Source of the DNA: Hysterangium stoloniferum
Taxonomy: Eukaryota > Basidiomycota > Agaricomycetes > Hysterangiales > Hysterangiaceae
NCBI GenBank assembly: GCA_015178975.1
Contig: WHVD01000189.1
Coordinates: 82,431-146,430, forward strand
Direction: 5' to 3'
Length of the DNA stretch: 64,000 nucleotides
Shown piece by piece: positions 38,841-64,000 of this stretch. The position numbers were made by a program, and so were the translations under genes. Under the pieces are notes generated by a model, which did not search any database, was not told the DNA's origin, and was given only the letters and a program-made list of their open reading frames with translations. Numbering within the stretch: position 1 is the first letter of the stretch; every line of letters begins with the position of its first letter.

Positions 38841-38847
38841 TATAAAA
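38841..38847 (+). promoter_or_regulatory. TATA box of the antisense gene in element 1
   Basis: TATAAAA 56 nt before the ATG at 38,897, outside the LTR. The sister element has TATAAG 57 nt before its ATG, in the same place. Confidence 0.6.
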
Positions 38848-38896: not shown

Positions 38897-39869
38897 ATGT
38901 CGATTCGTTGGCCATTATTCATCACTACCCCGGAAGATTCAGATACTGAAATTGCTGTACTTCAAAAAATGTCGAAGGTCACAGAACTTCAACAAAAACG
39001 ACAAAGGATGGAGGAGTTGAAGCGACGACAGGAGGAGGAGGAAAAGGCGTTGATGCAGGAGTTGAAAGAGGTGGAAGAGGCAGAAAAACAGGAGTTGGAG
39101 TGGGTGAAGGCGGAAAAGAAGCGTGGATACGGAAAACGGCGGAGGTTCAGAAAAAGAAGGAAGAGGTGGAAAGATTACAGTGGGAGTCAGAGGCGGCGAA
39201 AAAACTTAAGGAGATAAGGGAAGGAAAGGTAAGTTCGATCCATAAATTTTCTGTGGTTCCAACCGATAACTATTGGGTACAGCAAAAAGCCGTGGAGGTG
39301 GAAGTAGAGGGAGAGGCTGGGCCTTCGAGTCCTAAAGTAAGTGCATCTACAAAAGGTCGGTAATTGATTAACTTCCGAAACAGAAGCCAAAGGTCAAGGC
39401 TCCGGAATGGATGGAAGTCGTCCACGACACTCCATGTTATCAATGTTCCATACGGAATATGACATGTTGGAAACAGAAGGTAAAATGGGGTGGAACTTGC
39501 TATCCCTGCGCAGTTCTTAAACTTCCGTGCACTCTCGCCTCGAAAAGGGTTCCAAAAGGTGAGAAGGCTCAGAAGGCTAATGATGTGGAAAGTTCGGGAG
39601 CGGCCAAAGCTGTGGAAACTGAGGTGCCGAAAATGGATAGTACGGGCATTGAGCTCCTCAAGGACACCGTTGATGCGTTGGTCTTTATCGGGACGGAAGT
39701 CATGAAAATGCGGGATACACTAGATCGCCATAATGAGATACAGGAAAAGGGTTTCCGTTCATTGATCTGGAATTTCTGGAGGCAAAACGAGTTTCTGGAG
39801 AAGGTTTGGAGTATCAGAGACTCTAAAATAGTCCTAATAATATTTTTTTTTTTGACTTGCAAAACCTAA
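38897..39869 (+). pseudogene. Antisense accessory gene of element 1: coiled coil plus GAL4-spaced Cys6 cluster (one frameshift)
   Basis: Lies between the pol stop and the 3' LTR, on the strand opposite to pol. Exons 38897-39228, 39283-39336, 39384-39869. Exon 1 codes for a long charged coiled coil (KRQRMEELKRRQEEEEKAL) and loses one base near 39,110, so it is 332 nt instead of a multiple of three. Exon 2 ends GPSSPK. Exon 3 has CYQCSIRNMTC...CYPCAVLKLPC: spacing Cx2Cx6Cx10Cx2Cx6C, as in fungal Zn2Cys6 clusters, then a second helical region. The gene in the element at 56.6 kb has the same exons and the same spacing. About 290 residues if the frame were whole. Function unknown. Confidence 0.8.
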
Positions 39870-39934: not shown

Positions 39935-42900
39935 TTAGAGTGATGATAAAGGTCCGGGTTTGCTTGGATAAGCTGTGTGGAAGTCAGTAACAATTTCCAT
40001 AGCGTGTCCAAGTTCCGTGGCCAATATCCATGAAGTTTCCTCGTCGGTACCTTCATAACCTGCCCATTTGACTAAATAGAGCAATTTACAAGTATGTCGG
40101 CGATTGTCAATTTTAGAATCCAAAATTTCGGAAACTTCAAATTCAGGTTCTCTGTCAATGATGACCAGAGGGGACAGAGGTTGAATACATTCCAGGATTT
40201 TGTTAGGAACACAAGGTTCTAACATTGAAACGTGGAAAATGGGATGGACTGCTCGCATACTATTGGGAAGTTGGAGAGTCCATGAGAGTGAACCGGCTTG
40301 TGCTATAATTTCAAAAGGGCCTAAGAATTTCTCAGTGAGTTTTCTAGAAGGTTGGGTAGTACGGAAGAATTGAGCTTTTACAAAAACCTGATCACCAATT
40401 TTAAAATTAGGAGGCAGGATCCTGTTTTTGTCTGTGGAATGTTGATAATATTCCTGTGTGGAAGAAATAGCTTTCCAAAGTTCTTGATGTAATTCATCGA
40501 GGTCGGTAATAAATTCTTGAGCACGAACAGAAGCCAAATCTCATTCGGAATGTACTGTGAGATTCAGATTATAGCCTTTGTTGGTGAAAAAGGGAGAGAC
40601 ACCGGTAGTTGCATTCAGAGAGTTATTGTAGGCGAATTCCGCGATCGGAAGAAGGGATTTCCAGTTGTCCTGTTGATAATTGCAATAGATGCAGAGATAT
40701 TGTTCCAATGTTTGATTAACGCATTCCATTTGTCCATCACCTTCCAGGTGATATCCCGAGGTGAAGTGTAGTTTCATGTTGAGGGCTTTTCCGAGGGCCT
40801 GGAAGAAATGGGAGATGAACTTGGAGCCTCGATTGGAAGTTACGTGAGATGGAACTCCGTGTTTGGAATCTGCTAATTGTAAGGATGTGATTGTATCATG
40901 AGTGGGTATGAAAATGCCTTGTTTCGAGAATCGATCCACAACAACTAGAATGGATGTAAAGCCTTCAGACGTCAGAAGTTGTTCGATAAAATCCATGGAA
41001 ATTGAGTTCCAGGGTTTTTCCAGTGTCGTGAGTTGCTTGAGAAGGCCGTATGGCTTGTGCCTCTGGGTTTTGGAGCATAAGCAGGTGGTGCATGACTTAC
41101 AGAACTGGGTTATGAAATCTTGGAGGTTGGGCCAAGTGTATTCTCTACGGATTAAACCAAGAGTATTGTTAATGCCATAATGTCCAGAGATTGGATGATT
41201 GTGTTTATACTGAAGTACACGGAGTCGGAGATTGTTGGAATCTGGAACATAGATACGTCCATCGAGACGGATAAAGCCTTGAGAGTCTTGTGACCATCGG
41301 TTGGTCGGGATTGTCAGGAACTTCTAGGTGTGGCTTGAGAGCTGGATCAGAAGTGAGTGCGGAAAGGATATCTTGATGTAATTGCTCAATGTCCATAATC
41401 ATGATGCTACGCATAATTGGATAGTAGAGGGAAGTCACTCGAATAGATGTGGAAAGTTGTTGCATTGTAAAAACTGGTTTCAAGTTATGCGGATTAACAA
41501 CGGCGTAGTTACTTTCCCCCTCTTTAGGATAGACATCCCATTGTCGAGTCATGGCATCTGGTTTTCCACCAAGATGTCCAGGTCGGAAACAGATAATCAT
41601 GTTGAAAGTGGAAAGGAATTCAGACCAGCGGGCTTGCCGGTGGGTTAAAAGTTTAGTGGTAGAAAAATATTCGAGATTTTTGTGATCAGTAACAATGTCA
41701 ATGGGAGTTGTGGAACCTTCGAGATACTGGCGCCAATGTTTGAAAGCCTTGAAAATCGCCAAAAGTTCCTTATCATGAACATCATAGTTGAGTTTGGACA
41801 CTTTCAGTGTCCGAGAAAGGAATGCGACTGGATGAATTTCACCATCAGAATCTTGAATGGAAAGAATCACAGCAATTGCATAATCGGAAGCATTGGTTTC
41901 CACAATAATCGGAACATCAGGTTTCCAATGGGAAAGAATCGGGGCAGAAGTAAAAGCATTTTTTAAAGTCTGGAAGGCGGAGCAGCATTTGTCGTCAAAG
42001 ACCCATGGTTGAGTTTTACGGGTAAGACGAGTGAGTGGTACTGTAATATCCAAGTAATTCCAAATAAAATGATGGTAAAAGTTGGCGAAACCTAAAAATG
42101 ACTGAATGTCCTTGACTTTCCATGGTTCGGGCCAATCACGGACAACTTGAACCTTGGTTTCGTCCATACGAAGACCCTCAGGTCTGATAATGAAACCTAA
42201 GTATTCAATAGAATCCATGTCAAAGTAGCATTTTTTACTGTTGGCGAGAAGACCGTTTTTACGGAGTCTTCAGAAAACTTCACAGACCTGTTCATTGTGA
42301 AGAGCAGGATCCTCGGAAAATACCAAAATGTCGTCCAAATAGACTATAACACATACGTCAAGCATGTCAGAAAATATATCATTAACAAAACGTTGAAAAG
42401 TGGAAGGTGCATTGGTAAGGCCGAACGGTATAACCAACCATTCAAAGGATCCATAGTGAGTCCGAAAAGCAGTTTTCCATTCATCACCCTCGGCAATTCG
42501 AACCAAATGATAAGCGTGTTTGAGGTCTATTTTGGTGTAAATTCGAGCTTTCCGTGGGGTGTCGAGTAAATTGGTAACGAGTGGAAGTGGATACTTATCT
42601 TTCTGTGTGATGGAATTTAATCCTCTGAAATCAACACAGAGTCGAAGGGAGCCATCCTTCTTTCTGACGAAAAGGATGGGTGCTCTGTACGGAGACTTTG
42701 AGGGACGGATAAAACCTATCGACAGATGTTCATCCAGGAACTCCCAAATAGACGAAAGTTCTGATTGGGACAATGGGTAAATAGGTCCTAACAGAGGGTT
42801 TGAACTGGGCTCAATATCAATTTTTAAGTCGTAGGGCCTATGTGGTGCAAGCCTGTCAGCTTTTTGCTTACTGAAAATGTCCGTGAAATCATGGTATTTT

Positions 42901-45722: not shown

Positions 45723-46513
45723 TGTTAAGAACTGGAAACTGACTAATGTCGGTGGCCTTAGACGGAAAATGCGAGTGTGAAATCAGAATATACTGTTAAG
45801 AACTGGAAACTGACTAATGTCGGTGGCCGACAGGGACCGATCGGAAGGACTTGGCTTCAGCTTATGGGCTGCGCCCTCGCAAATATCCGCAGGATGTCCT
45901 TAAATTTCGGGCGGGCGAAGACTAGTCCTAGTGAGTACCTTTCGGCGTGATACCGATCGGAATCGAAGGACAAGTCGAGCGTCGGGCCAAGGGGTCGGGG
46001 CCGGAAGTGGGCGAGCGCACGCGAAGGCGGATGGGGGAAGTCTTAGTATGAGAGTGATACAGGTGTATGAGGGTATTCTGAGTCGATATTCTGATTGTCC
46101 AGTAACTACAATTACAGCGGGTTCATATACAAGTAACAGGCGTCTGGAAAATACTAATGGGGAGAAGGGCGGAACACGGTATTAACAATAAGCTTGACTA
46201 GGAACGGGAAGTTTATGATTAGTTCGGAGGCCGATGATAACCGAGAGCGGAATTACGATAAAAGGAAATGGTTCGAGGACTACAAATATAGATAGACATA
46301 TGCGAAACATAAGATTGAACGGATCAACATAATAAAGGGGACGTATCAAAGTTTGACCAGACAATACGAGTTATTTGACGTGGGTGTAAATGGAGTTTGA
46401 TCTTCGCGAAACATTCGTCAGCTTCGGGGCCGATGGTTTCCGAGGGGACGACTTGAAACGTTGACAAGTGGCGATAACCTCGGGGCCGATAGGGTTGCGA
46501 CACGGTCGTAACA
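45723..46513 (-). mobile_element. Deleted family B element: LTR stub, leader, full LTR
   Basis: Target duplication GTCAC on both sides (45,718-45,722; 46,514-46,518). Inside: first 36 bp of a family B LTR, 35 bp of leader including the priming match AATCAGAATAT (45,781-45,791), then a full 720-bp LTR (45,794-46,513). A deletion has joined the 3' LTR directly to the leader just outside gag. Confidence 0.85.
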
Positions 46514-48382: not shown

Positions 48383-49782
48383 TGTTCATTGTGTGTGGTT
48401 TGGACCCATATGTACCCACATGTACTTACCGTAGCGCTATCTGCGTGTTGGCAATCTACCACTGCCGGTCATTCGAGTTTGAGTCTGAGTCTGAGTTTGG
48501 TCACTTCTGGTGACTTCTGTGTCCTTCTATCTACTATTCCAACAGGTTATGGGCCCCAGCTTCCACTAAATCTCCATCAATTTCACATAATTCCCTTATC
48601 AGTACTCCTATTCCGACACCTCCTGAATCCTTCCATCCAACATCATGTCCTCTGGTCTTACCTCCATCTTCTCTAGTGCCCCTCTCCTTGTTGAGGACAA
48701 CTACTATGAGTGGAAGAGAGCAATGAAGATGTGTTTCCTGGGTGCTGCCTTTACCTGGATCACTGATGATCCCAATGCTGTTGTCCCTACAGATAAGGTC
48801 ACAGAGGATGGACAGGCAGCCTTCTTTATCTATTCTCACATTTCTTTTCAACTCCAGTCAAAGGTGTATGATATCAGCTCTGGATTGGCATCCTGGAAGG
48901 CTGTTCATGCCTATTTTCAGAAGTCTACCATGGGTCGTAGGGTCAAAGCTGTAGAAGCCTTTATGGCAACTAAACAGGATCCTTCCAAACCTATTAGGTG
49001 TATATCCAATCGATTCAGAAGTCTCGTCAAGTGCTGGAAGGTCTTGGAGTTCCATTCAGTGATGTTTTCATTGGTGACATCATTCTTGTTGGTCTCCATC
49101 CTTCCTATCATACTGTTCACACTAGCATTCTTACTGCCAAGACTGAACCCTCACTTTCTGATATCATCGACATTCTCATTGGTTCCTCCACTTCAGTTAT
49201 TGATATCAAAACTGAGCCGATCGAGACTTCATTTTTAGCCCGGGGTGGACGAACTACCAGAGGTGATTTACATTCTTCAGGTCAGAAATCAGAATATGGA
49301 GCTATTCCCAATCATCCTTTAGAGGATGATAAAGGGTATCGTTGGTGCAATCCTGCCAATGAAGGTCACTGTCATCATTGTGGAAGACCCAATCATCATT
49401 CAGTCACCTGCATTTATGATATGCCTTCTCACATCAAGGATCACATCATGTCAGGATCATCTCATTCTCCTGATCATGCCAATTCCACCCAAGTTCATTT
49501 TTCAGGTGGTGCTTACTCTGGTCTGGTTCATTCTTCACACTCTTCCCCTAGATTATCTTGAGCCCCTTCTCCTAAGAATGATTCACATCCCTTTGTTGTG
49601 CTTCGCATTTAGTTTTTACATTTGGTGGGTGTGTGGTTTGGACCCATATGTACCAACATGTACTTACTGTAGTGCTATCTGCGTGTTGGCAATCTACCAC
49701 CACTGGTCATTCGAGTTTGAGTCTGAGTCTGAGTTTGGTCACTTCTGGTGACTTCTGTGTCCTTCTATCTACTATTCCAACA
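48383..49782 (+). mobile_element. 1,400-bp gag-only copia-like element
   Basis: Target duplication GAGGA at 48,378-48,382 and 49,783-49,787. Terminal repeats of about 160 bp (48,383-48,545; right copy about 49,620-49,782), nearly identical from TGTGTGGTTTGGACC to ATTCCAACA. GGTTATGGGCCCC, an initiator-tRNA-like primer site, follows the left repeat. Only a gag frame lies inside, so movement would need enzymes from another element. The high similarity of the repeats suggests a fairly recent insertion into an old gypsy element. Confidence 0.85.
48645..49561 (+). pseudogene. Copia-type gag with zinc knuckle, one frameshift
   Basis: Starts MSSGLTSIFSSAPLL and shows the UBN2/gag-like stretches NYYEWKRAMKMCFLGAAF and SKVYDISSGLASWKAVHAYF. 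The frame shifts near 49,000. The second half has VGLHPSYHTVHTSIL and the knuckle CHHCGRPNHHSVTC (Cx2Cx4Hx4C). Ends HSSPRLS. No protease or polymerase follows. Confidence 0.8.
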
Positions 49783-50877
49783 GAGGAGGGTCCACACTGT
49801 CTTCAAGGTCAATCTTGAGGTCATAGGTTCTATAAAGCACCAAAGTGTTGGCACACCATTTGTGTAAGGGCAACCCCTGCTACCAATAGTATTCACACTA
49901 GGCTAGCAGGAGGGAATCTGAAGAGAAACAGTCTAAGGAATTCCCCCTGTGAGATGTGACCCATAGGCACCCAGTAGTCTAAAAATAGTTAACTCTACCT
50001 AATACAGAACAGGAACCCTTCCCACAATGGAACATTAATGCTACAAGCTCCTGAAGTTAGTAACCTACTCCTCAGAGGGATGTATTAGCCAGAGTAGTTG
50101 ATATCTGCAAGGAGAGGGAAAGGCATGGGGTTGGACTGTGGACTCAGGGACTTCAATAAGAGGAAATGGTGCTCCTGGGGTCTGTGACAGAGGGTCCCCT
50201 GATAATTTGCTGAAAATGTCCACAAAGTCATGGTACTTCTCTGGGATGCTGTTGAGGAAAAGGTAGTCACAGACATAAAGGTGCTGAGCTGAGAGACATT
50301 TTTAAAGAGAACATCTGGGATCCATCCATCTTACTGGGGTGTAAACCACATCAGCATTAACTAAAGAAATGGACAGGATGTCTGTCATGGAGGGGGTGGC
50401 CAGTGAAGCCACTGCTGCCCTGGCTGAAACTGAAGAAGCTGGAGTTCAACTGTCAGGCACCCAGAAAGTGTAGATGTCCCAATACCTAGTCAATCAACAG
50501 ATTGAAGTGGGTAAGCCAGTTGTATCCAAGGATGACTGTAAAACTCAAATCCAACTGTGTCATATAAAATGTGAGCTGCTGAAGAGTTCCACATAGAAAA
50601 CAACTGCAAGGTTGCAAACTTGAGTTATGACACTATTACTGGTGCCATCAAAGAGTTGTAGGGGGATCAGATCAACCCATTGAGTTTTGAGCTTGTGAAT
50701 GGTGAGAAAATTGGTGTCCATGAAGCAATGGGTCAATCCAGAGTCCACAAAGGCTTTAAAATTTGAAGAGGTGTGTGCTGAAGTCAAGGAGATGAAAAGA
50801 GAATTGGGGTCTAAAAGAGCAGACACATTGAGCTGGAGGCCATAGTTAACAGTTTATGAGCTTGAGTTTGAATATAC
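49783..50877 (-). pseudogene. Old gypsy element, linker and protease (piece 4)
   Basis: Minus strand: a decayed YDLKIDLED stretch next to the insertion, FSANYQGTL region, then protease with SALLDPNSLFISLTSAH, AFVDSGLTHCFMD (DSG kept), and [18 protein letters not shown]. Gag is gone. The leader next to the LTR reads GTATATTC in pol direction, as in the family B element. Confidence 0.83.
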
Positions 50878-51947: not shown

Positions 51948-53488
51948 TGTTAGGGTACGTACATGGTGGGTCTCCGGAGAAACTCGGGAATATCCAGTAG
52001 GACTTGGCTTCAGCTTATAGGCTGTGCCCTCGCTAGATCGTGTTGTCCAATTTCAGACAGGTGGACAGGAATCCCAGGGAGTCCAGGTGGGGGTCGTGGG
52101 TCAAGGGGTCGTAGGTCGGAGGTCGTGGGTCGTGAGTCGAGATAGGTAAGAGAGATAGATGTGCCGGAGCCCGTGGGCTCAGACTAGTGTGAGTGGTGTA
52201 ATTCAAGTAGGAGTTTAGAGCGGAAAATGTATTAGATTACTGGGGGGAATCTAAGCCGATTTTCTGACTGGATTGTATGTACAATGTCTGCCAGTTTAAA
52301 TAGATTGTGGAGTGAATGTCATACCGAATCCAGTAATGATGAAATGAAATGAGCAAAACATAAAATGGGAATAGTAAACACCAAATTGGTGTTAGGAATG
52401 GGATGGAACAGAGCAGAGTCTGAATAGTGACAAATCATAAACCATAACAGGAAACAGAGTGGGAGCAGAGTCCGAATCGTGACAGGTCATTTGACTAAAA
52501 TGGGAATGGGGCTCTGTTAGAGGGATGACGGGTTTTCTGAGCGGGGTCTGGTGACTGATGCGCGGGACGAGATCGGACATAGACAGAGACGGAGTCCAGT
52601 GGGTTTTCTGGTGACTGAAACACAACATAACGAAGATGAACGTAGACAAGTCTGACATACGGAGTCCAGTGGGAATTCCAGTAAACTGATAATGGGTGCG
52701 TATAGGGTGTGGGTGTGTGTTAAGAACTGAAAACTGACTAATGTCAGTGGCTGACAAGGACCGATCGGAAGGACTTGGCTTCAGCTTATGTGCTGCGCCC
52801 TCGCAAATGTCTGTAGGGTGTCCTTAGATTTCGGATGGGCAAAGACTAATCCTAAAGAGCTCCTTTCGGCGAGATACCGATTGGAACCGAAGGACAAGTC
52901 GAGCATCGGGCCAAGGGGTCGGGGCCGGGAGTGGGTGAGCACACACAAAGGTGGATGGGGGGATTCTTAGTATGAGACTGTACAGATGTATGAGGGTATT
53001 CTGAGTCGATATTCTGATTGCCTAGTAACTACAACTACAGCGGGTTCATATACAAGTAACAGGTGTCTAGAAAATACTAATGGGGAGAAGGGCGGAAAAC
53101 GGTATTAACAATAAGCTTGACTAGGAACGGGAAGTTTATGATTAGTTCGGAGGCCGATGATAACTGAGAGCGGGATTACGATAAAAGAAAATAGTTCAAG
53201 GACTAGAAATATAGATAGACATATGTGAAACATAAGATTGAACGGATCAACATAATAAAAGGGATGTATCAAAAGTTTGACCAGACAATATGAGTTATTT
53301 TGATGTGGGCGTAAATGGAGTTTGATCTTTGCGAAAACATACGTCAGCTTCGGGGCCGATGGTTTCCGAAGTGGTGACTTGAAAACATTGTAAGTGGCGA
53401 TAACCTCAGGACCGATAGGGTTGCGACACGGTCATAACAGTGCATATAAGTTAGTGCCTGGAGTCCGGCGGGATTTCCGGTCATAACA
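51948..53488. mobile_element. Solo LTR of family A nested in family B LTR
   Basis: TGTTAGGG...CATAACA, flanked by GTTTC at 51,943-51,947 and 53,489-53,493. It is itself split by another family B LTR at 52,718-53,439. Confidence 0.88.
52718..53439. mobile_element. Solo LTR of family B (722 bp), innermost of the nest
   Basis: TGTTAAGAACTG...CATAACA. Its borders GTGTG and GTGCA agree at three of five bases, so the target copy has decayed or was shifted. Third level of nesting: B inside A inside B. Confidence 0.8.
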
Positions 53489-56581: not shown

Positions 56582-57304
56582 TGTTAAGAACTAGAAACTG
56601 ACTAATGTCGGTGGCCGACGGGGACCGATCAGAAGGACTTGGCTTCAGCTTATATGCTGCGCCCTCGCAAATATCCGTAGGTTGTCCTTAAATTTCGGAC
56701 AGGCGAAGACTAAATCCTAAGAAGAACTTTTCGGCAAGACACCGATCGGAACCGAAGGAAAAGTCAGGTGTCGGGCCAAGGGGTCAGGGCCGAGAGTGGG
56801 CGAGCGCACGCGAAGGCGGAAGAGAGATTCTCCTAGTATGAGACTGCTACAGACGTATGAGGGTATTCTGAGTCGATATTCTGATTGCCTAGTAACTACA
56901 ATTACAGCGAGTTCATATACAAGTAACAGGCGTCTAGAAAGTACTAATGGGGAGGGGGGCGGAAAACGGCATTAACAATAAGCTTGACTAGGAACAGGAA
57001 GTTTATGATTAGTTCGGAGGCCGATGATAACCGAGAATGGAAATTACGATAAAAGGAAATAGTTCGAGGACTACAAATATAGTTAGACATATGTGGAACA
57101 TAAGATGAGACGGATCAACATGATGAAAGGGACATATCAAAACATAACCAGACAGAAAGGCGTAGTCGGGTTTGATTGACCGGAGAGCATACGTCAGCGT
57201 CGGGGGTCCGACGGCTTCCGAGGTGTTGTATTGTCGGAGACGTATAACGAGGGTATTCCGTCGGGGGCCGTCGGTTTGCGAAGGGTTACGACACAGTCGT
57301 AACA
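56582..57304 (-). repeat. 3' LTR of element 3 (723 bp)
   Basis: TGTTAAGAACTAG...CGTAACA. Contains the hairpin motif near 56,645 and the 11-nt priming match ATATTCTGATT at 56,876-56,886, which would place the start of the R region 418 nt from the LTR's outer pol-side end. Confidence 0.92.
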
Positions 57305-57420
57305 GTATCCCCTCATTTGGCCGAAATCCCAAGGAGGCCGAAAATCTAGATCGTGTACGTAAAACAACGTCGGTTACGGGTTGTGTGTCAGAACGTCATG
57401 TGACCGGTAAAATTTTCGCA

Positions 57421-57426
57421 TATAAG
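57421..57426 (+). promoter_or_regulatory. TATA box of the antisense gene in element 3
   Basis: TATAAG 57 nt before the ATG at 57,478, outside the LTR; the equivalent gene in element 1 has TATAAAA at 56 nt. Confidence 0.6.
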
Positions 57427-57477
57427 AAATGGGAGGTTACAAGGCGCTTTACTCTTCAATCTTTCCTCCAAAACACA

Positions 57478-58485
57478 ATGTCAATGAACACTGGGGCGAA
57501 GACCATCCCTGTGAGGCTGACGGTAACTCCCGCGTCGGGTCCGAGTGGGACGCTGAATGCACTAGAGCGTCGTCGCCAACTCGAGGCAAGGAAAAAGGCA
57601 CGCGAGGAAGAGGAACGAAAGGAGATGGAGGAGCTGAAAGCGATTGAGGTGGCCGAGGCGGAGGAGAAGAGACGGGCGGAGGTGGAAGCTACGCGCAAGC
57701 GTCGGGAGGCTGATCTTGCGAGGAAAAAACAGCAGGAGGCTGGTCGGGCCCGAGAGGAGGAGGCGAGAAAGAAACGAGAAGGGAAGGTAAGTTAGGAGAA
57801 ATACCGCACTGCGAATCTCTACTAATGTTTTCTTCTCAGCGAAAGGCAGTATCACCGTCGGTCTCCGATGAAGAGGACGAGGAAGATGAGGATGAGGCTG
57901 CGGGGCCTTCGAGCCCGAAGGTATTTATGCATATATATATTTTTTTTTGCTGTTACTGACTTTTAGTGATAGAGACAAAAAGGAGTCCCAAAGGCGGGGC
58001 CTGAAAACGATCCTAGGTGTAACCGCTGCACTGCTCGGAACCGGGCTTGCCATCCTCGGGCGAACGGTCGGGGCCGCACATGTCAAGAGTGTGCGAGTCA
58101 AAAACTTGGTTGTACCTACCCGGGGGCCGACGTGGGTGTGATCTACGGAGAGCGCCAGACAGACGCGATGGAGGAACAGAACCGCCTTATGCGGTTGTAC
58201 TTCTCGGAGACCACTCGGTGGCGAAACGAGTCTCTGCGACAGCAGGGGCTCCTACAAGAGCAAATGCGACTGCTGGGAGTGGCTATTGGAGAACAGACAG
58301 CCATGTTACAGTGGGTCGGGGGGCAGCTCGAGCAGTATCTCGAGCTGCCTAGTTCGGACGAAGTTGAGCCGGTTAGGGCCTTGGAGGAAACTGGAGGGAA
58401 GGGAATATCGGTTGCCGTCGGTGAAGCAAGAGCTTCGGAGGCCGAGGAGGAAGGGGAAGTAGTGGAGGGTACTTTGGGTAGTTAG
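57478..58485 (+). CDS. Antisense accessory gene of element 3: coiled coil plus GAL4-spaced Cys6 cluster
   Basis: Intact. Exons 57478-57786, 57840-57920, 57973-58485 give 300 residues. Residues 25-103 form a highly charged helix (ERRRQLEARKKAREEEERK onward). Exon 2 is acidic and ends GPSSPK. Exon 3 opens with CNRCTARNRAC...CQECASQKLGC (about residues 146-171): Cx2Cx6Cx10Cx2Cx6C, fitting fungal Zn2Cys6 DNA-binding clusters, followed by a second helical region (RQTDAMEEQNRLMRLYFSE) and an acidic C terminus. A cluster, a dimer-like coil and an acidic end resemble a transcription factor; this is inference. It lies opposite to pol, starting 174 nt inside the 3' LTR, with its own TATA box. Element 1 has the same gene with the same introns. 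Confidence 0.83.
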
Positions 58486-58609
58486 CAAAATAATAATTGA
58501 TTTTATCCCCTTTTTTTTTGAAACGTGAATTGAAAATTGAAAATTGAAAGCATCGACTAGTGAGACTTGATGTTTGAAGAACCGGAGGCCGTCGGTTACC
58601 GTGCGAGGA

Positions 58610-61600
58610 CTAAAGAGAGTCTAAAGGACCGGGCTTATTTGGATACGTTTGATGGAAAGCTAAAACAATTTCCGATGCATTGCCAAGTTCGGTGGCTAGA
58701 ATCCAGGAAGTTTCTTCATCTGTACCTTCATAGCCAGTCCATTTGACCAAATAAAGTAACTTGCACGATCGCCTGCGATTGTCGATCTTGGAGTCTAGGA
58801 TTTCCGATATTTCAAATTCGGGTTCCCCGTCGATGATCACGGGTGGGGGTGGTGGTTGTATGCGATCGGGTATACTGTTAGCAACACAAGGTTCTAACAT
58901 GGATACATGAAATACCGGGTGTACTGCACGCATGTTGTCGGGGAGCCGAAGCGTCCATGAAAGCGTGCCGGCTTGTGCTATAACTTCAAAAGGACCTAAA
59001 TATTTTTCAGAGAGCTTCTTAGAAGGTCTAGTGGTTCGGAAAAACTCGGCTTTAACGAATACTCGGTCTCCGATCTTGAAATCAGGAGGTGGAAGTCGGT
59101 TTTTATCCGCAGACCGTTGGTATCGTTCTTGAGCCATTGCGATAGTTTTACGAAGTTCTTGATGTAGCTCGTCAAGGTTTGTAACAAAGTCTTGAGCACG
59201 GGCGGATGCGAGATCGCATTCCGGGTGGATTGCGATGTTGGGGTTGTAGCCTTTATTTGCGAAGAAAGGCGAAATGCCAGTAGTGGCATTTGGTGCGTTG
59301 TTGTATGCGAATTCGGCCAGCGGTAGTAGTGATTTCCAATTGTCTTGTTGATAGTTGCAATAGACACGGATGTATTGCTCCAAGGTTTGATTCATGCGTT
59401 CGGTTTGTCCATCGCCTTCCGGGTGATAGCCCGAAGTGAAGTGTAACTTTATGTCTAGTGCTTTTCCGAGTGACCTAAAGAAGTGAGAGACAAACTCGGA
59501 GCCGCGATCGGATGTGACATGCGACGGAACGCCATGCTTGGAAAATACATGGGTAACGAATAATTCAGCTAACTGTACAGATGTTATCGTGTCATATGTT
59601 GGAATGAAAATACTTTGCTTTGAGAGCCGATCCACAACAACTAGGATTGCTGTGTGACCTTCGGATGCTGGCAGGTGCTCGATAAAATCCATAGAAATCG
59701 AGTTCCAGGGTTTTTCCGGTATCGGTAATTGTTTGAGTAGGCCATATGGTTTGTGTCGCTGTGATTTAGAGCGTAAACACGTAGTACAGGATTTACAATA
59801 GTGCTTAACAAAATCTCGGATGCCGGGCCATGTATATTCTCTTCTAATGAGTGAGAGGGTCTTATTGAGGCCGAAATGTCCTGAGATTGGGTGGTCATGC
59901 TTATGTTGTAGGATTCGCAGCCGAAGGGTGTCGGAATCCGGTACATAAATGCGATTGTCAAGTCGAATGAAACCTTGTGAGTCTAATGACCATCGGGGTT
60001 GATCGGGGTCGGACGGGTTATCGAGGTGTGCTTTGGTGACTGGGTCTAATGGAATTGCCGATAGTATGTCTTGATGTAACTTTTCGGTATCCATAAGGAT
60101 AACACTTCGCAAGACTGGATGAATGAGGTAAGTGGCTCGGATAGATGCGGACAGTTGTTCCGATGAAAACATAGGTTTGAAATTATGCGGGTTAACTGTG
60201 GCGTAGTCGCTACTCCCCTCTTTAGGATAGACGTCCCATTGTCTAGTCATAGCGTCGGGTTTTTCCACCAAGGCGGCCGGGACAGAAGCGGATTACCATG
60301 TTGAAAGCGGAGAGGTATTCGGACCATCGAGCTTGTCGACGGGTGAGAAGTTTTGTGGTTGAAAAGTAAACTAAATTTTTGTGGTCTGTAATAACATCTA
60401 CCGGGTGGGCCGAGCCCTCCAAAATAATGTCACCATGTCTTGAAAGCTTCAAAGATTGCGAGTAATTCCTTATCGTGAACGTCGTAGTTGAGTTCGGGCG
60501 CCGAAAATGTGCGAGACAGAAAAGCTACTGGGTGTACTTCACCATCGGTGTCCAGAATGGACAATATCGCGGCAAGCGCATAGTCCGAAGCATCAGTTTC
60601 CACGATGAGTTGAACGTCGGGTTTCCAGTGCGACAAAATAGGGGCGGATGTAAATGCACTTTTCAATTCCTGGAATGCCGATCGGCATTCGTCGGAGAAA
60701 TTCCACGGGGTGTCTTTGCGAGTAAGACGAGTGAGCGGAACGGTAATTTTTGAGTAATTGTGAATGAAACGGCGATAAAAATTGGCGAAGCCTAAAAAGG
60801 ACTGAATATCTTTAACCTTTCGGGTTCCGGCCAATCTTGAATGACTTGAATTTTAGAGTCGTCCATGCGGAGACCGTCGGGTTCCATCATGAAGCCTAAG
60901 TATTCAACCGTGTCGACATCAAAAGAACATTTTTTACCATTCGCAAAAAGACCATGTTTTCGGAGTCTTCGGAGGACTTCACGGACGTGTTCATCATGAA
61001 GTGTAGGGTCTTCGGAGAAGATGAGGATGTCGTCTAGGTACACAATGACAAAGACGTCAAGTAGGTCGGAAAAGACGTCGTTGATAAAACGTTGAAAGAC
61101 CGACGGAGCGTTGGTGAGGCCGAAAGGCATCACTAACCATTCAAAGGAACCATAGCGAGTGCGAAAAGCTGTTTTCCATTCGTCACCTTCGGCGATCCGA
61201 ACCAAATGATAGGCGTGTTTGAGATCTATCTTTGTATAAATTCGGGCCTTTCGAGGGGCGTCGAGTAAATCGGAGATTAGTGGTAATGGGTACTTGTCTT
61301 TTCGAGTAATCGCGTTTAGTCCTCGAAAGTCAACGCAAAGTCGAAGGGAACCGTCTTTTTTCCGAACGAATAGGACAGGGGCTCCATAGGGAGACTTTGA
61401 GGGTCGGATAAAACCTATAGCCAAGTGTTCATCCAAGAAATCTCGGATAGCCGATAGTTCGGACTGCGAGAGAGGATAAACCGGACCTAGGGGCGGATGT
61501 GAACCATCTTCAATATCAATTTTCAAATCGTAAGGCCTGTGAGGGGCGAGTCGATCGGCTTTTTGTTTACTGAAGACATCTGCAAATTCATGGTATTTTT

Positions 61601-62422
61601 TAGGAACACCTTCTAAATCTGCGATCGGTTCGGTCACCGGGGATGCGAAGTGACCGGTGACTTCGTCAACTTTAAGATTGACTGTAAATGCTCGGGAGCC
61701 GTCCAGCTTGATGGCTCTCATAAAAGCTGCGGCGTTTATTAGAGAGACGGGCGGCGGAGAGCTCGGATTTGCCACGGGGCCGGAGGTGCTGTAGAGGCCA
61801 TATTTGCCGAAACAGGCGGAAACGGACCAGTCGTATTGGGTGCCGACGGGGTTCGGAAATGGATACTGCCCAATACCCAATCAATCAACGGATTATAGCG
61901 GGTGAGCCAGTTATGTCCTAGAACCACGGAGCAGCTTGAGTCCAACTGTGTTACAAAAAACGTAACTGTCTGAAAGGTTCCACACGGGAACCGAAGTCGG
62001 AGTTCGCAGGTTTGCGAGATTACGGAGTTTGAGGTACCATCAAAAAGTCGGAGCGGAATCGGATCTATTGCATAGGTTTTCAACTGATTTTTTCTGGAAA
62101 AACTTGTATCTATAAAACAATGGGTTGAACCTGAATCTATGAGAGCTCGAAAAGTGAAACTCCCGAGAGGTTCCGAAGTAAGATTTATGAACAAAGAATT
62201 AGGATCATACAATGCGGATGCGTTAAGATGACAATTTTCCGGTGTGCGAGGAGATTCAACGCAACTCTCCAACCGCACGGAATCCAGAGAGTTGCTTAAT
62301 CTTTTTTCGACTCGGCAGCCGGCTTGGCCGGTTGTGAGGTCGTGGCCGTATTGGCCGATCGGGCTTTTGTGGCTTTTGGGCATGCAGCGACTCGGTGTCC
62401 GGGATCTGCACACAACAAACAA
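58610..62422 (-). CDS. pol of element 3: protease, RT, RNase H, integrase, chromodomain (a few frame breaks)
   Basis: Protease [13 protein letters not shown] with [18 protein letters not shown] (about 62,140-61,870). [42 protein letters not shown], catalytic [10 protein letters not shown]. RNase [16 protein letters not shown]. Integrase: [13 protein letters not shown] with CKSCTTC zinc site, [15 protein letters not shown] and [10 protein letters not shown] (D, D and E all present). Chromodomain [20 protein letters not shown], end PGPLDSL. Frames break near 61,860, 60,830, 60,440 and 60,260, each by one or two bases. All catalytic residues are kept, so the breaks are either very recent or sequence errors. 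Chromodomains steer integration toward marked chromatin. Confidence 0.9.
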
Positions 62423-63592
62423 AGGTTGTTGTCCATTCGGCGTTGCTTTTCCTGTGGTAGGAGCTTGCCATCGGAGCCGAGTTTGCCAGTTAGGTCGGGT
62501 TTGTCTTTGTCTTGAGACTTATTCGACTGTTTGCCCTTGCCTTTTTTGTCGTTAGACCCTTTGTTTTCGGACTTCTTATTGGAAGTCGAGTTGCCAGTTA
62601 TATTGGTGTTTTGGTTACCAGACTTGTTGGCATTTTTGTTGTCCGATGATTTTTTGTCCGACGGGTTTTCGCGACTGATTTCCGAACGTCGTTCCCAGTA
62701 TCGAGCGTCTGCGTTTTGGGCTTTCAGGCGCATGAGAGGGAGGGTTTTCGGCTTGCCGGTCTCTCCTTTGGAAACTTCGTCTTTGAGGCGAGACGGAAGG
62801 CCGGAGTAAAACTGGTATCGGAGGGCCGAATCGCCCCAGTCGCAACGCGCGGCGAGGTTGTTGAACTGGACGATATAATCGGTGATGCGCTGAGTGTCTT
62901 TCATTTTGAGATTAGAAAGCGCGGTTTCTGCATCGCCAGTTTGGTCGTAGGGGCCGAAGTTGGTTTCAAGTTCCTCGACAAAGGCATCCAATCGTGGAGC
63001 CAATCGGGGTCTTCAGAGGTGAGGCCAGAGAATGCGGGTTCGAACCAGGCTGCTGCGGAATCCTTAAGGTATGAGAGTGCGAAGTTTACCTTTCGGTCAT
63101 CCGTTGCGAATGCAGCCGGGCGGTCCCGAAAGTTGAATCGACATTGCATGAGAAATGTCGGCAATTTCTTCGGGTTTGAGCCAGTAAATGGCTCGGGTTT
63201 GTGACTTGGGTTTGCCCAGGTTCCTTTTCCTTGATATTGCTTTTAAGGAATTCATTAAGGGATCCTAGTGTACCTGAAAACAATTCCCATGTTTCTTCAG
63301 GGGTCGAGAGCCGGTTTCTTCTTTGCAGACTTCTTGGAGCCACTAGCCTGAGGTTGGTCGCCATCCTCGGGTTCGTGTTCCGAAACTGGTTGATTGTTAA
63401 TCTCCTCAGTTGCTTCGGGTCGGTTGCTTCGGTTACTTCTTCAGCATCGCCGGTAATCTCCACAAAGCGAGATTCTTCGGAGGTTTCTGGTAACGGAGTT
63501 TTCTGAGTAGCTCGGGCTGTATACAGGAAAGGAGACTTGAGAGTGGAAGATTCTGCTTCGCCGCTAGGCTTGGCATTTTTCCTCGGAGGCAT
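62296..63592 (-). CDS. gag of element 3 (with frame breaks)
   Basis: MPPRKNAKPSGEAESS start, TWELFSGTLGSLNEFLK, capsid part WFEPAFSGLTSEDPDWLHDW, AFVEELETNFGPYDQTGDAE and RITDYIVQFNNLAARCDWG, Asn/Lys-rich linker, zinc knuckle [14 protein letters not shown] (Cx2Cx4Hx4C), end AAESKKD. Compared with the gag at 53,542 the frame slips near 63,410, 63,200 and 63,000, each a one-base change. The gag stop overlaps the start of the protease frame. Confidence 0.85.
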
Positions 63593-63619
63593 GATTAGAC
63601 GGAAAAAATGCGAGTGTAA

Positions 63620-63630
63620 AATCAGAATAT
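63620..63630 (-). other. Self-complementary primer-binding site of element 3
   Basis: AATCAGAATAT on the plus strand, two bases inside the 5' LTR. Its exact reverse complement ATATTCTGATT lies in both LTRs (63,923-63,933 and 56,876-56,886). Confidence 0.78.
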
Positions 63631-63632
63631 AC

Positions 63633-64000
63633 TGTTAAGAACTAGAAACTGACTAATGTCGGTGGCCGACGGGACCGATCGGAAGGACTTGGCTTCAGCT
63701 TATATGCTGCGCCCTCGCAAATATCCGTAGGTTGTCCTTAAATTTCGGACAGGCGAAGACTAAATCCTAAGAAGAACTTTCGGCAAGACACCGATCGGAA
63801 CCGAAGGAAAAGTCAGGTGTCGGGCCAAGGGTCGGGCCGAGAGTGGGCGAGCGCACGCGAAGGCGGAAGAGAGATTCTCCTAGTATGAGACTGCTACAGA
63901 CGTATGAGGGTATTCTGAGTCGATATTCTGATTGCCTAGTAACTACAATTACAGCGAGTTCATATACAAGTAACAGGCGTCTAGAAAGTACTAATGGGGA
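63633..64000 (-). repeat. 5' LTR of element 3 (first 368 bp in window)
   Basis: TGTTAAGAACTAG onward, nearly identical to 56,582-56,949 of the left LTR. The rest is outside the window. Confidence 0.92.

Follow-up and report, generated by a model that had tools for sequence, protein, structure and literature searches.

The window analysed here, a stretch of 64,000 nucleotides (nt) from Hysterangium stoloniferum (contig WHVD01000189.1, positions 82,431 to 146,430), contains two chromoviruses, termed element 1 and element 2. As the initial annotation had described, each carries a three-exon gene between the pol stop and the 3′ long terminal repeat (LTR), on the strand opposite to pol, and this gene encodes six cysteines with the spacing Cx2Cx6Cx10Cx2Cx6C (39435–39530 in element 1 and 58018–58113 in element 2). 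In element 2 the antisense gene occupies 57478–58485 on the plus strand and encodes 300 amino acids. The element is composed as follows:

56582–57306, minus strand: 3′ LTR
57132–57306, minus strand: outer part of the U3 (unique 3′) region, with inverted CGG/CCG pairs
57422–57427, plus strand: TATA box, 56 nt 5′ of the antisense gene's ATG
57478–57786, plus strand: exon 1, with the ATG at 57478; a charged, coiled-coil-like stretch with GK as last residues
57787–57839, plus strand: intron 1 (53 nt)
57840–57920, plus strand: exon 2, an acidic stretch with SSPK as last residues
57921–57972, plus strand: intron 2 (52 nt)
57973–58485, plus strand: exon 3 including the stop codon; putative zinc cluster, probable coiled coil and acidic tail
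58018–58113, plus strand: Zn2Cys6-like cluster
58132–58344, plus strand: predicted long helix (exon 3 residues 54–124), presumably a coiled coil
58613–60292, minus strand: end of pol; codes for integrase and chromodomain and runs convergently to the antisense gene
63632–64000, minus strand: 5′ LTR, incomplete because the contig ends here

Element 2 is young, because 362 of 365 aligned bases are the same in the 3′ LTR and the part of the 5′ LTR inside the window. The initial annotation placed it at 56,582–64,000; its 5′ LTR is in fact truncated by the contig end. The pol of element 2 has the Chromo domain (PF00385, 28.1 bits versus a cut-off of 25.1), integrase domains and RVT_1 expected of a Ty3/Gypsy chromovirus. 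The antisense gene likewise has the attributes of an antisense accessory open reading frame (ORF): it is a coding gene, lies between pol and the 3′ LTR in the orientation opposite to pol, and occurs in many copies with coding constraint. In a six-frame scan of the whole window, the cysteine pattern C..Cx6Cx4-14C..Cx4-8C was matched twice, both times in the antisense genes, and never in 100 mononucleotide shuffles, which rules out a chance origin of the motif.

The antisense gene of element 1 (38897–39869, plus strand) follows the same plan:

38841–38846, plus strand: TATA box
38897–39228, plus strand: exon 1, with the ATG at 38897; frame broken in the window copy
39229–39282: intron 1
39283–39336, plus strand: exon 2
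39337–39383: intron 2
39384–39869, plus strand: exon 3, shortened; Cys6 at 39435–39530
39938–41582, minus strand: end of pol, in two frames

The matching plan is thus present in both elements, but the copy in element 1 is decayed rather than intact, with a frame change in exon 1 and a short exon 3 that aligns with relatives over 146 residues, against frames of about 220 in most of these relatives. The TATA box lies 56 nt before the ATG in both genes, which corrects the earlier distances of 56 and 57 nt. The pol proteins of the two elements are 75% identical over 461 residues, indicating related but different chromoviruses, as had been proposed.

The gene is abundant in the 111-Mb genome that was searched. 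The designations used are A for the type in element 2, B for copies 53–70% identical to A, D for the type in element 1, and C for a third type, encountered in locus L021. Exon 3 queries yielded at least 151 matches for A, and at least 150 each for D and C. Among the matches listed, 116 of 150 pol C-termini have an exon 3 within 1.5 kb, and all 116 pairs are convergent, with none on the same strand and a median gap of 109 nt. The 34 of 150 pol ends without an exon 3, and the 34 of 150 exon 3 rows without a pol end, may represent losses, or their partners may merely lie outside the matches listed. All 40 loci fetched for closer analysis have a pol match beside the gene on the opposite strand (about 1.1 kb away in L030), and L059, the sole C locus fetched for context, has the same layout, with the gene antisense to an adjoining chromovirus pol. 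These observations agree with the expectation that homologues always lie antisense between pol and the 3′ LTR, and not mainly as host genes away from LTR elements; the number of matches per type and the convergence with pol also rule out capture of a host gene by a single copy. A protein homologue search with alignments returned two H. stoloniferum proteins, P0001 and P0002, and a search with residues 100–300 of the 300-residue protein returned no match. The predicted protein P0001 is 99% identical to its best place in the genome over residues 65–201, and 91% to the next. In-frame stops within the exon 3 matches are mostly TGA in the A and D lists, with TAG also present in the C list; an excess of TGA is what CpG decay of CGA would produce. 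At L020:5386–6150, a C-type exon 3 frame reads directly into an integrase, apparently because one element was inserted into, or recombined with, another.

The 40 fetched copies were chosen from the A and D match lists across the identity range, mostly with an open exon 3 frame, so that the figures for cysteines, splice sites and dN/dS (the ratio of non-synonymous to synonymous substitution rates) lean towards intact copies. From sequence and structure prediction, the protein appears to begin with a charged stretch, which is followed by a Zn2Cys6-like cluster and then by a long helix. Zn2Cys6 domains (PF00172) are defined by six cysteines with the spacing Cx2Cx6C…Cx2Cx6-8C. This six-cysteine spacing is found in 38 of the 40 fetched loci, the exceptions being L036 and L041. 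An alignment of 27 exon 3 proteins (A, B, D and one C row) has nine invariant columns, comprising all six cysteines and one each of glycine, lysine and glutamine; in a larger set of 39, the first cysteine is missing in one C copy, L059. In a Foldseek search, ranks 1–17 of 19 were Zn2Cys6 factors, and the clusters of Ppr1 and Gal4 superpose on the predicted one at 1.3 Å over 36 and 35 residues, respectively. PF00172 is matched at E ≤ 10 by 34 of 39 cluster fragments, two of which exceed the gathering cut-off of 21 bits (L037, 23.0; L020, 22.9); the whole exon 3 of these two scores 18.4 and 16.7 bits, and the window fragment 11.9. AlphaFold modelled the 54-residue cluster alone with a pLDDT (predicted local distance difference test) of 59. 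The PDB gave four irrelevant matches by sequence (E 0.13–1.2) and none with a profile, and a viral-contig search returned 43 stretches, none of them confirmed. Taken together, spacing, Foldseek ranks, superposition and PF00172 matches support the GAL4-type Zn2Cys6 reading of the initial annotation, and the structure prediction it had called for pointed to a Zn2Cys6-like cluster followed by a long helix. The protein resembles fungal factors such as Gal4, Hap1, Ppr1, Pho7 and Leu3 in its cysteine spacing, predicted cluster fold and the helix after the cluster (the predicted helix is placed as in Gal4, Hap1 and Ppr1), but differs from them in being encoded by a retroelement, in being short and in falling mostly below the PF00172 cut-off. 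The resemblance to sequence-specific transcription factors makes it quite unlikely that the protein is a nucleic-acid-binding helper that acts elsewhere, for instance in RNA export, nuclear entry or the choice of integration sites, and does not regulate U3. Retroviral accessory proteins do such things, as is also discussed in the literature (PMC7264820), and the chromodomain integrase next door makes targeting thinkable.

The intron-bearing plan with its own TATA box is conserved across the A/B and D copies. Among 21 A/B rows, including the window copy, the first donor GT is kept in 21, the first acceptor AG in 20, the second donor in 20 and the second acceptor in 18; the corresponding numbers for 21 D rows are 20, 20, 21 and 21. 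The TATA box is present in 20 of 21 rows of the A/B set and equally of the D set, and so is the ATG. The interior sequence and length of the introns drift; donors, CTAAT/CTGAC-like sequences and acceptors stay. In P0002, which stems from an independent annotation of H. stoloniferum, a charged stretch ending in GK joins HKAAE directly, the kind of junction that splicing out intron 1 would be expected to produce.

The protein is under purifying selection, with an in-frame dN/dS of about 0.2–0.3. Median values for exon 3 are 0.20 in A (6 pairs), 0.18 in B (42 of 45 pairs, range 0.08–0.66) and 0.21 in D (136 pairs, 0.08–0.48), and those for exon 1 are 0.18 in A (3 pairs) and 0.19 in B (45 pairs). 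These comparisons comprise 17 of 20 D loci, four A (the window copy, L020, L021 and L022) and ten B rows for exon 3, and three A and ten B rows for exon 1; pairs with dS below 0.05 or undefined were dropped, which removed three of the 45 B pairs for exon 3. In a frame control with smaller sets, dN/dS was 0.20–0.31 in frame, 0.77–1.69 in frames +1, +2, −0 and −2, and 0.23–0.34 in frame −1. The low value in frame −1 mirrors the real frame, because third positions are common to both and frame −1 holds stops (two to six in each of nine copies checked). For pol, dN/dS is mostly 0.07–0.40 among comparable pairs, similar to the antisense gene. All six cysteines are kept in 17 of 17 D and 16 of 16 A/B rows of the dN/dS sets, which were picked as intact, and both TGT and TGC are used at most positions. 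The long maintenance suggested earlier is therefore borne out by the comparison of copies proposed for this purpose, and the copies do not evolve without constraint. Since pol and the gene are convergent and the latter has a TATA box of its own, the antisense transcript alone might be thought to matter, through double-stranded RNA or interference with pol RNA, the reading frame being incidental. This is highly improbable, as in-frame constraint, splice sites that are kept while introns drift, and kept cysteines all indicate that the protein matters.

The gene forms part of a 3′ cassette, exchangeable between elements and far more variable than pol. The window element and the B-type copy L025 are 94–100% identical per 100 bp over 63700–58901, 90–91% over 58900–58701 and 51–79% over 58700–57101, the last stretch covering pol stop, antisense gene and outer U3; the inner LTR returns to 82–94%. 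Between the same copies, dS itself is 2.3 in exon 3 versus 0.15 in pol, indicating that the 3′ segment was exchanged; a higher rate of protein evolution is thus ruled out as the only cause of the difference between A and B. In trees of 14 rows, in which L021 was entered with one of its two pol pieces, the A/B split of the gene has 100/100 support and branches of 0.39 and 0.24, and the separating branches in the pol tree are about 0.02. The best 40 of 2030 candidate integrases are 98–100% identical in DNA to that of the window over about 1400 bases; 14 of them have an A-type exon 3 (81–100%), 18 a B-type (63–65%) and eight none listed, although one of these eight, on C3, holds a partial A-type gene according to a DNA search. 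The B carriers are young too, because the LTR pairs of L025–L027 are 98–99% identical. The outer U3, which is unlike between A- and B-type cassettes, follows the gene type in 17 of 18 aligned copies as read by eye (L031, L034 and L038 were left out of the alignment). The exception is L021, a mosaic at 1650–2900 in which B-type flanks enclose an A-type gene that extends roughly from TATA box to stop codon, and whose sampled pol piece groups with B pols (approximately unbiased test, p = 0.006 against uniting the five A carriers). L021 rules out strict co-inheritance of gene and U3. Hence the gene is exchanged between elements within the 3′ cassette, usually with the outer U3 and once without it.

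Deeply different regulator types exchanged among elements with 98–100% identical integrases, and the co-variation of gene and outer U3 in most fetched copies, fit a specificity module. One such module would be a self-limiting repressor, in which the protein binds U3 and shuts down its own family to control copy number or superinfection, and exchange lets the types escape each other, comparable to phage immunity regions or to the copy number control of yeast Ty1. We consider this rather unlikely, as conservation about as strict as that of pol is not expected for a gene that curbs the spread of its own copy, and L021 separates the gene from its U3.

Candidate sites for a Zn2Cys6-like protein are enriched in the outer U3. 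In 18 A/B copies, which are kin and not independent, CGGN2-4CCG occurs 21 times versus 2.2 expected, with at most nine in 200 shuffles. The spacing is 3–4 in A copies, 2 in young B copies and 3 in L029 and L030, and six of the 18 copies have no such pair. A spacing of three is the commonest or near-commonest in A/B copies as a whole. In element 2, CGGN3CCG occurs 11 times in gag-pol (58613–63631) versus 1.3 in shuffles, and 11 times in 56582–58612 versus 0.7; the excess in gag-pol hints either at binding along the whole element or at unequal survival of CpGs. A candidate D-type spacing, CGGN5CCG, occurs six times in element 1, and hardly recurs in six relatives. A separate motif, TCGGKTACSG, lies beside the gene in nine of 42 sequences scanned, all of them A/B.

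Our preferred reading is that these chromoviruses carry an antisense accessory gene of their own, encoding a spliced, U3-binding, dimeric regulator that raises the expression of its own family and is exchanged as part of a cassette; we give it a probability of about 0.5. The mRNA would start at the 3′ end of the element, proceed in the direction of pol and be spliced, and the introns would survive retrotransposition because the pol-sense genomic RNA carries them backwards. The protein would dimerise via its coiled coil and bind CGG-type sites, most likely the inverted CGG/CCG pairs that its own LTR has in the outer U3. There, it would probably act as an activator or anti-silencer rather than a repressor, a judgement made because constraint on the protein is about as tight as on pol in multiplying copies. 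Cassette exchange provides nearly the same gag-pol with another regulator, and usually with another outer U3. Only tentatively can this be extended to specificity cassettes, in which the antisense Zn2Cys6 regulator and its U3 targets form a trans/cis module that is swapped between near-identical elements, similar to phage immunity regions. If so, the copies within one nucleus would fall into different sets, each type controlling its own set or escaping control by it.

Elsewhere in the window, two LTR-like repeats (45794–46363 and 52718–53287) are 87–88% identical to the LTR of element 2 and have a B-like outer end. The region between them contains copia-type gag frames and gave no match to the antisense gene; the repeats are either two solo LTRs or part of an odd composite element. 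Within the copia-type gag region, 48391–48558 and 49629–49796 form a 168-nt direct repeat with 93% identity. A frame of 490 codons at 1620–3092 matches the Mur ligase middle domain (PF08245) and is likely a host gene.

Although LTR elements have long been reported to carry antisense accessory genes, these genes are, to our knowledge, not known to have a particular function. The product described here combines a recognisable DNA-binding architecture with many copies in one genome, measurable constraint, natural recombinants and candidate binding sites, which makes the function of such genes directly testable, and it allows a regulator to be seen evolving as an exchangeable part of a retroelement. 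Antisense accessory genes as such are known, and the spliced Zn2Cys6 regulator on an exchangeable 3′ cassette is apparently new; a literature search that left out most subscription papers found none on a Zn2Cys6 product, on conserved introns or on exchange of such a gene between near-identical elements, which is no proof of absence.

Among fungal genes, brtn of Botrytis cinerea is reportedly associated with a study by Zhao et al. from 2011. In a later account (PMC7264820), brtn is an additional antisense gene between pol and the 3′ LTR of the Boty-like Gypsy elements, and a Boty-like gag-pol is described with a CHROMO domain; the gene described here is alike in placement, and the host of brtn is an ascomycete. 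In plants, antisense accessory ORFs of the same place and orientation are reported for Grande, RIRE2 and Retand, with an own promoter and a nuclear product for gene23 of Grande and predicted DNA binding for the Retand product, as far as the available text of these sources goes (PMC7264820, PMC11963269). In contrast to the elements analysed here, Retand is assigned there to a non-chromovirus lineage and encodes a TRP28 product (PF04195), a domain to which neither the 300-residue protein nor either exon 3 had a match at E ≤ 1. Copy number control of yeast Ty1 is similar in that the control is self-encoded and its specificity moves between elements by recombination, but according to the accessible part of the source, the factor is derived from Gag and acts on particles, and no antisense DNA-binding gene is involved (PMC7055915). 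The VANC proteins, encoded by the VANDAL elements of Arabidopsis, bind DNA sequence-specifically, and related elements differ in the targets of these factors (PMC5735166). Although VANDALs are DNA transposons of a plant host and VANC is a different protein, its anti-silencing activity offers, by analogy, a model for what the antisense gene of these chromoviruses might do.
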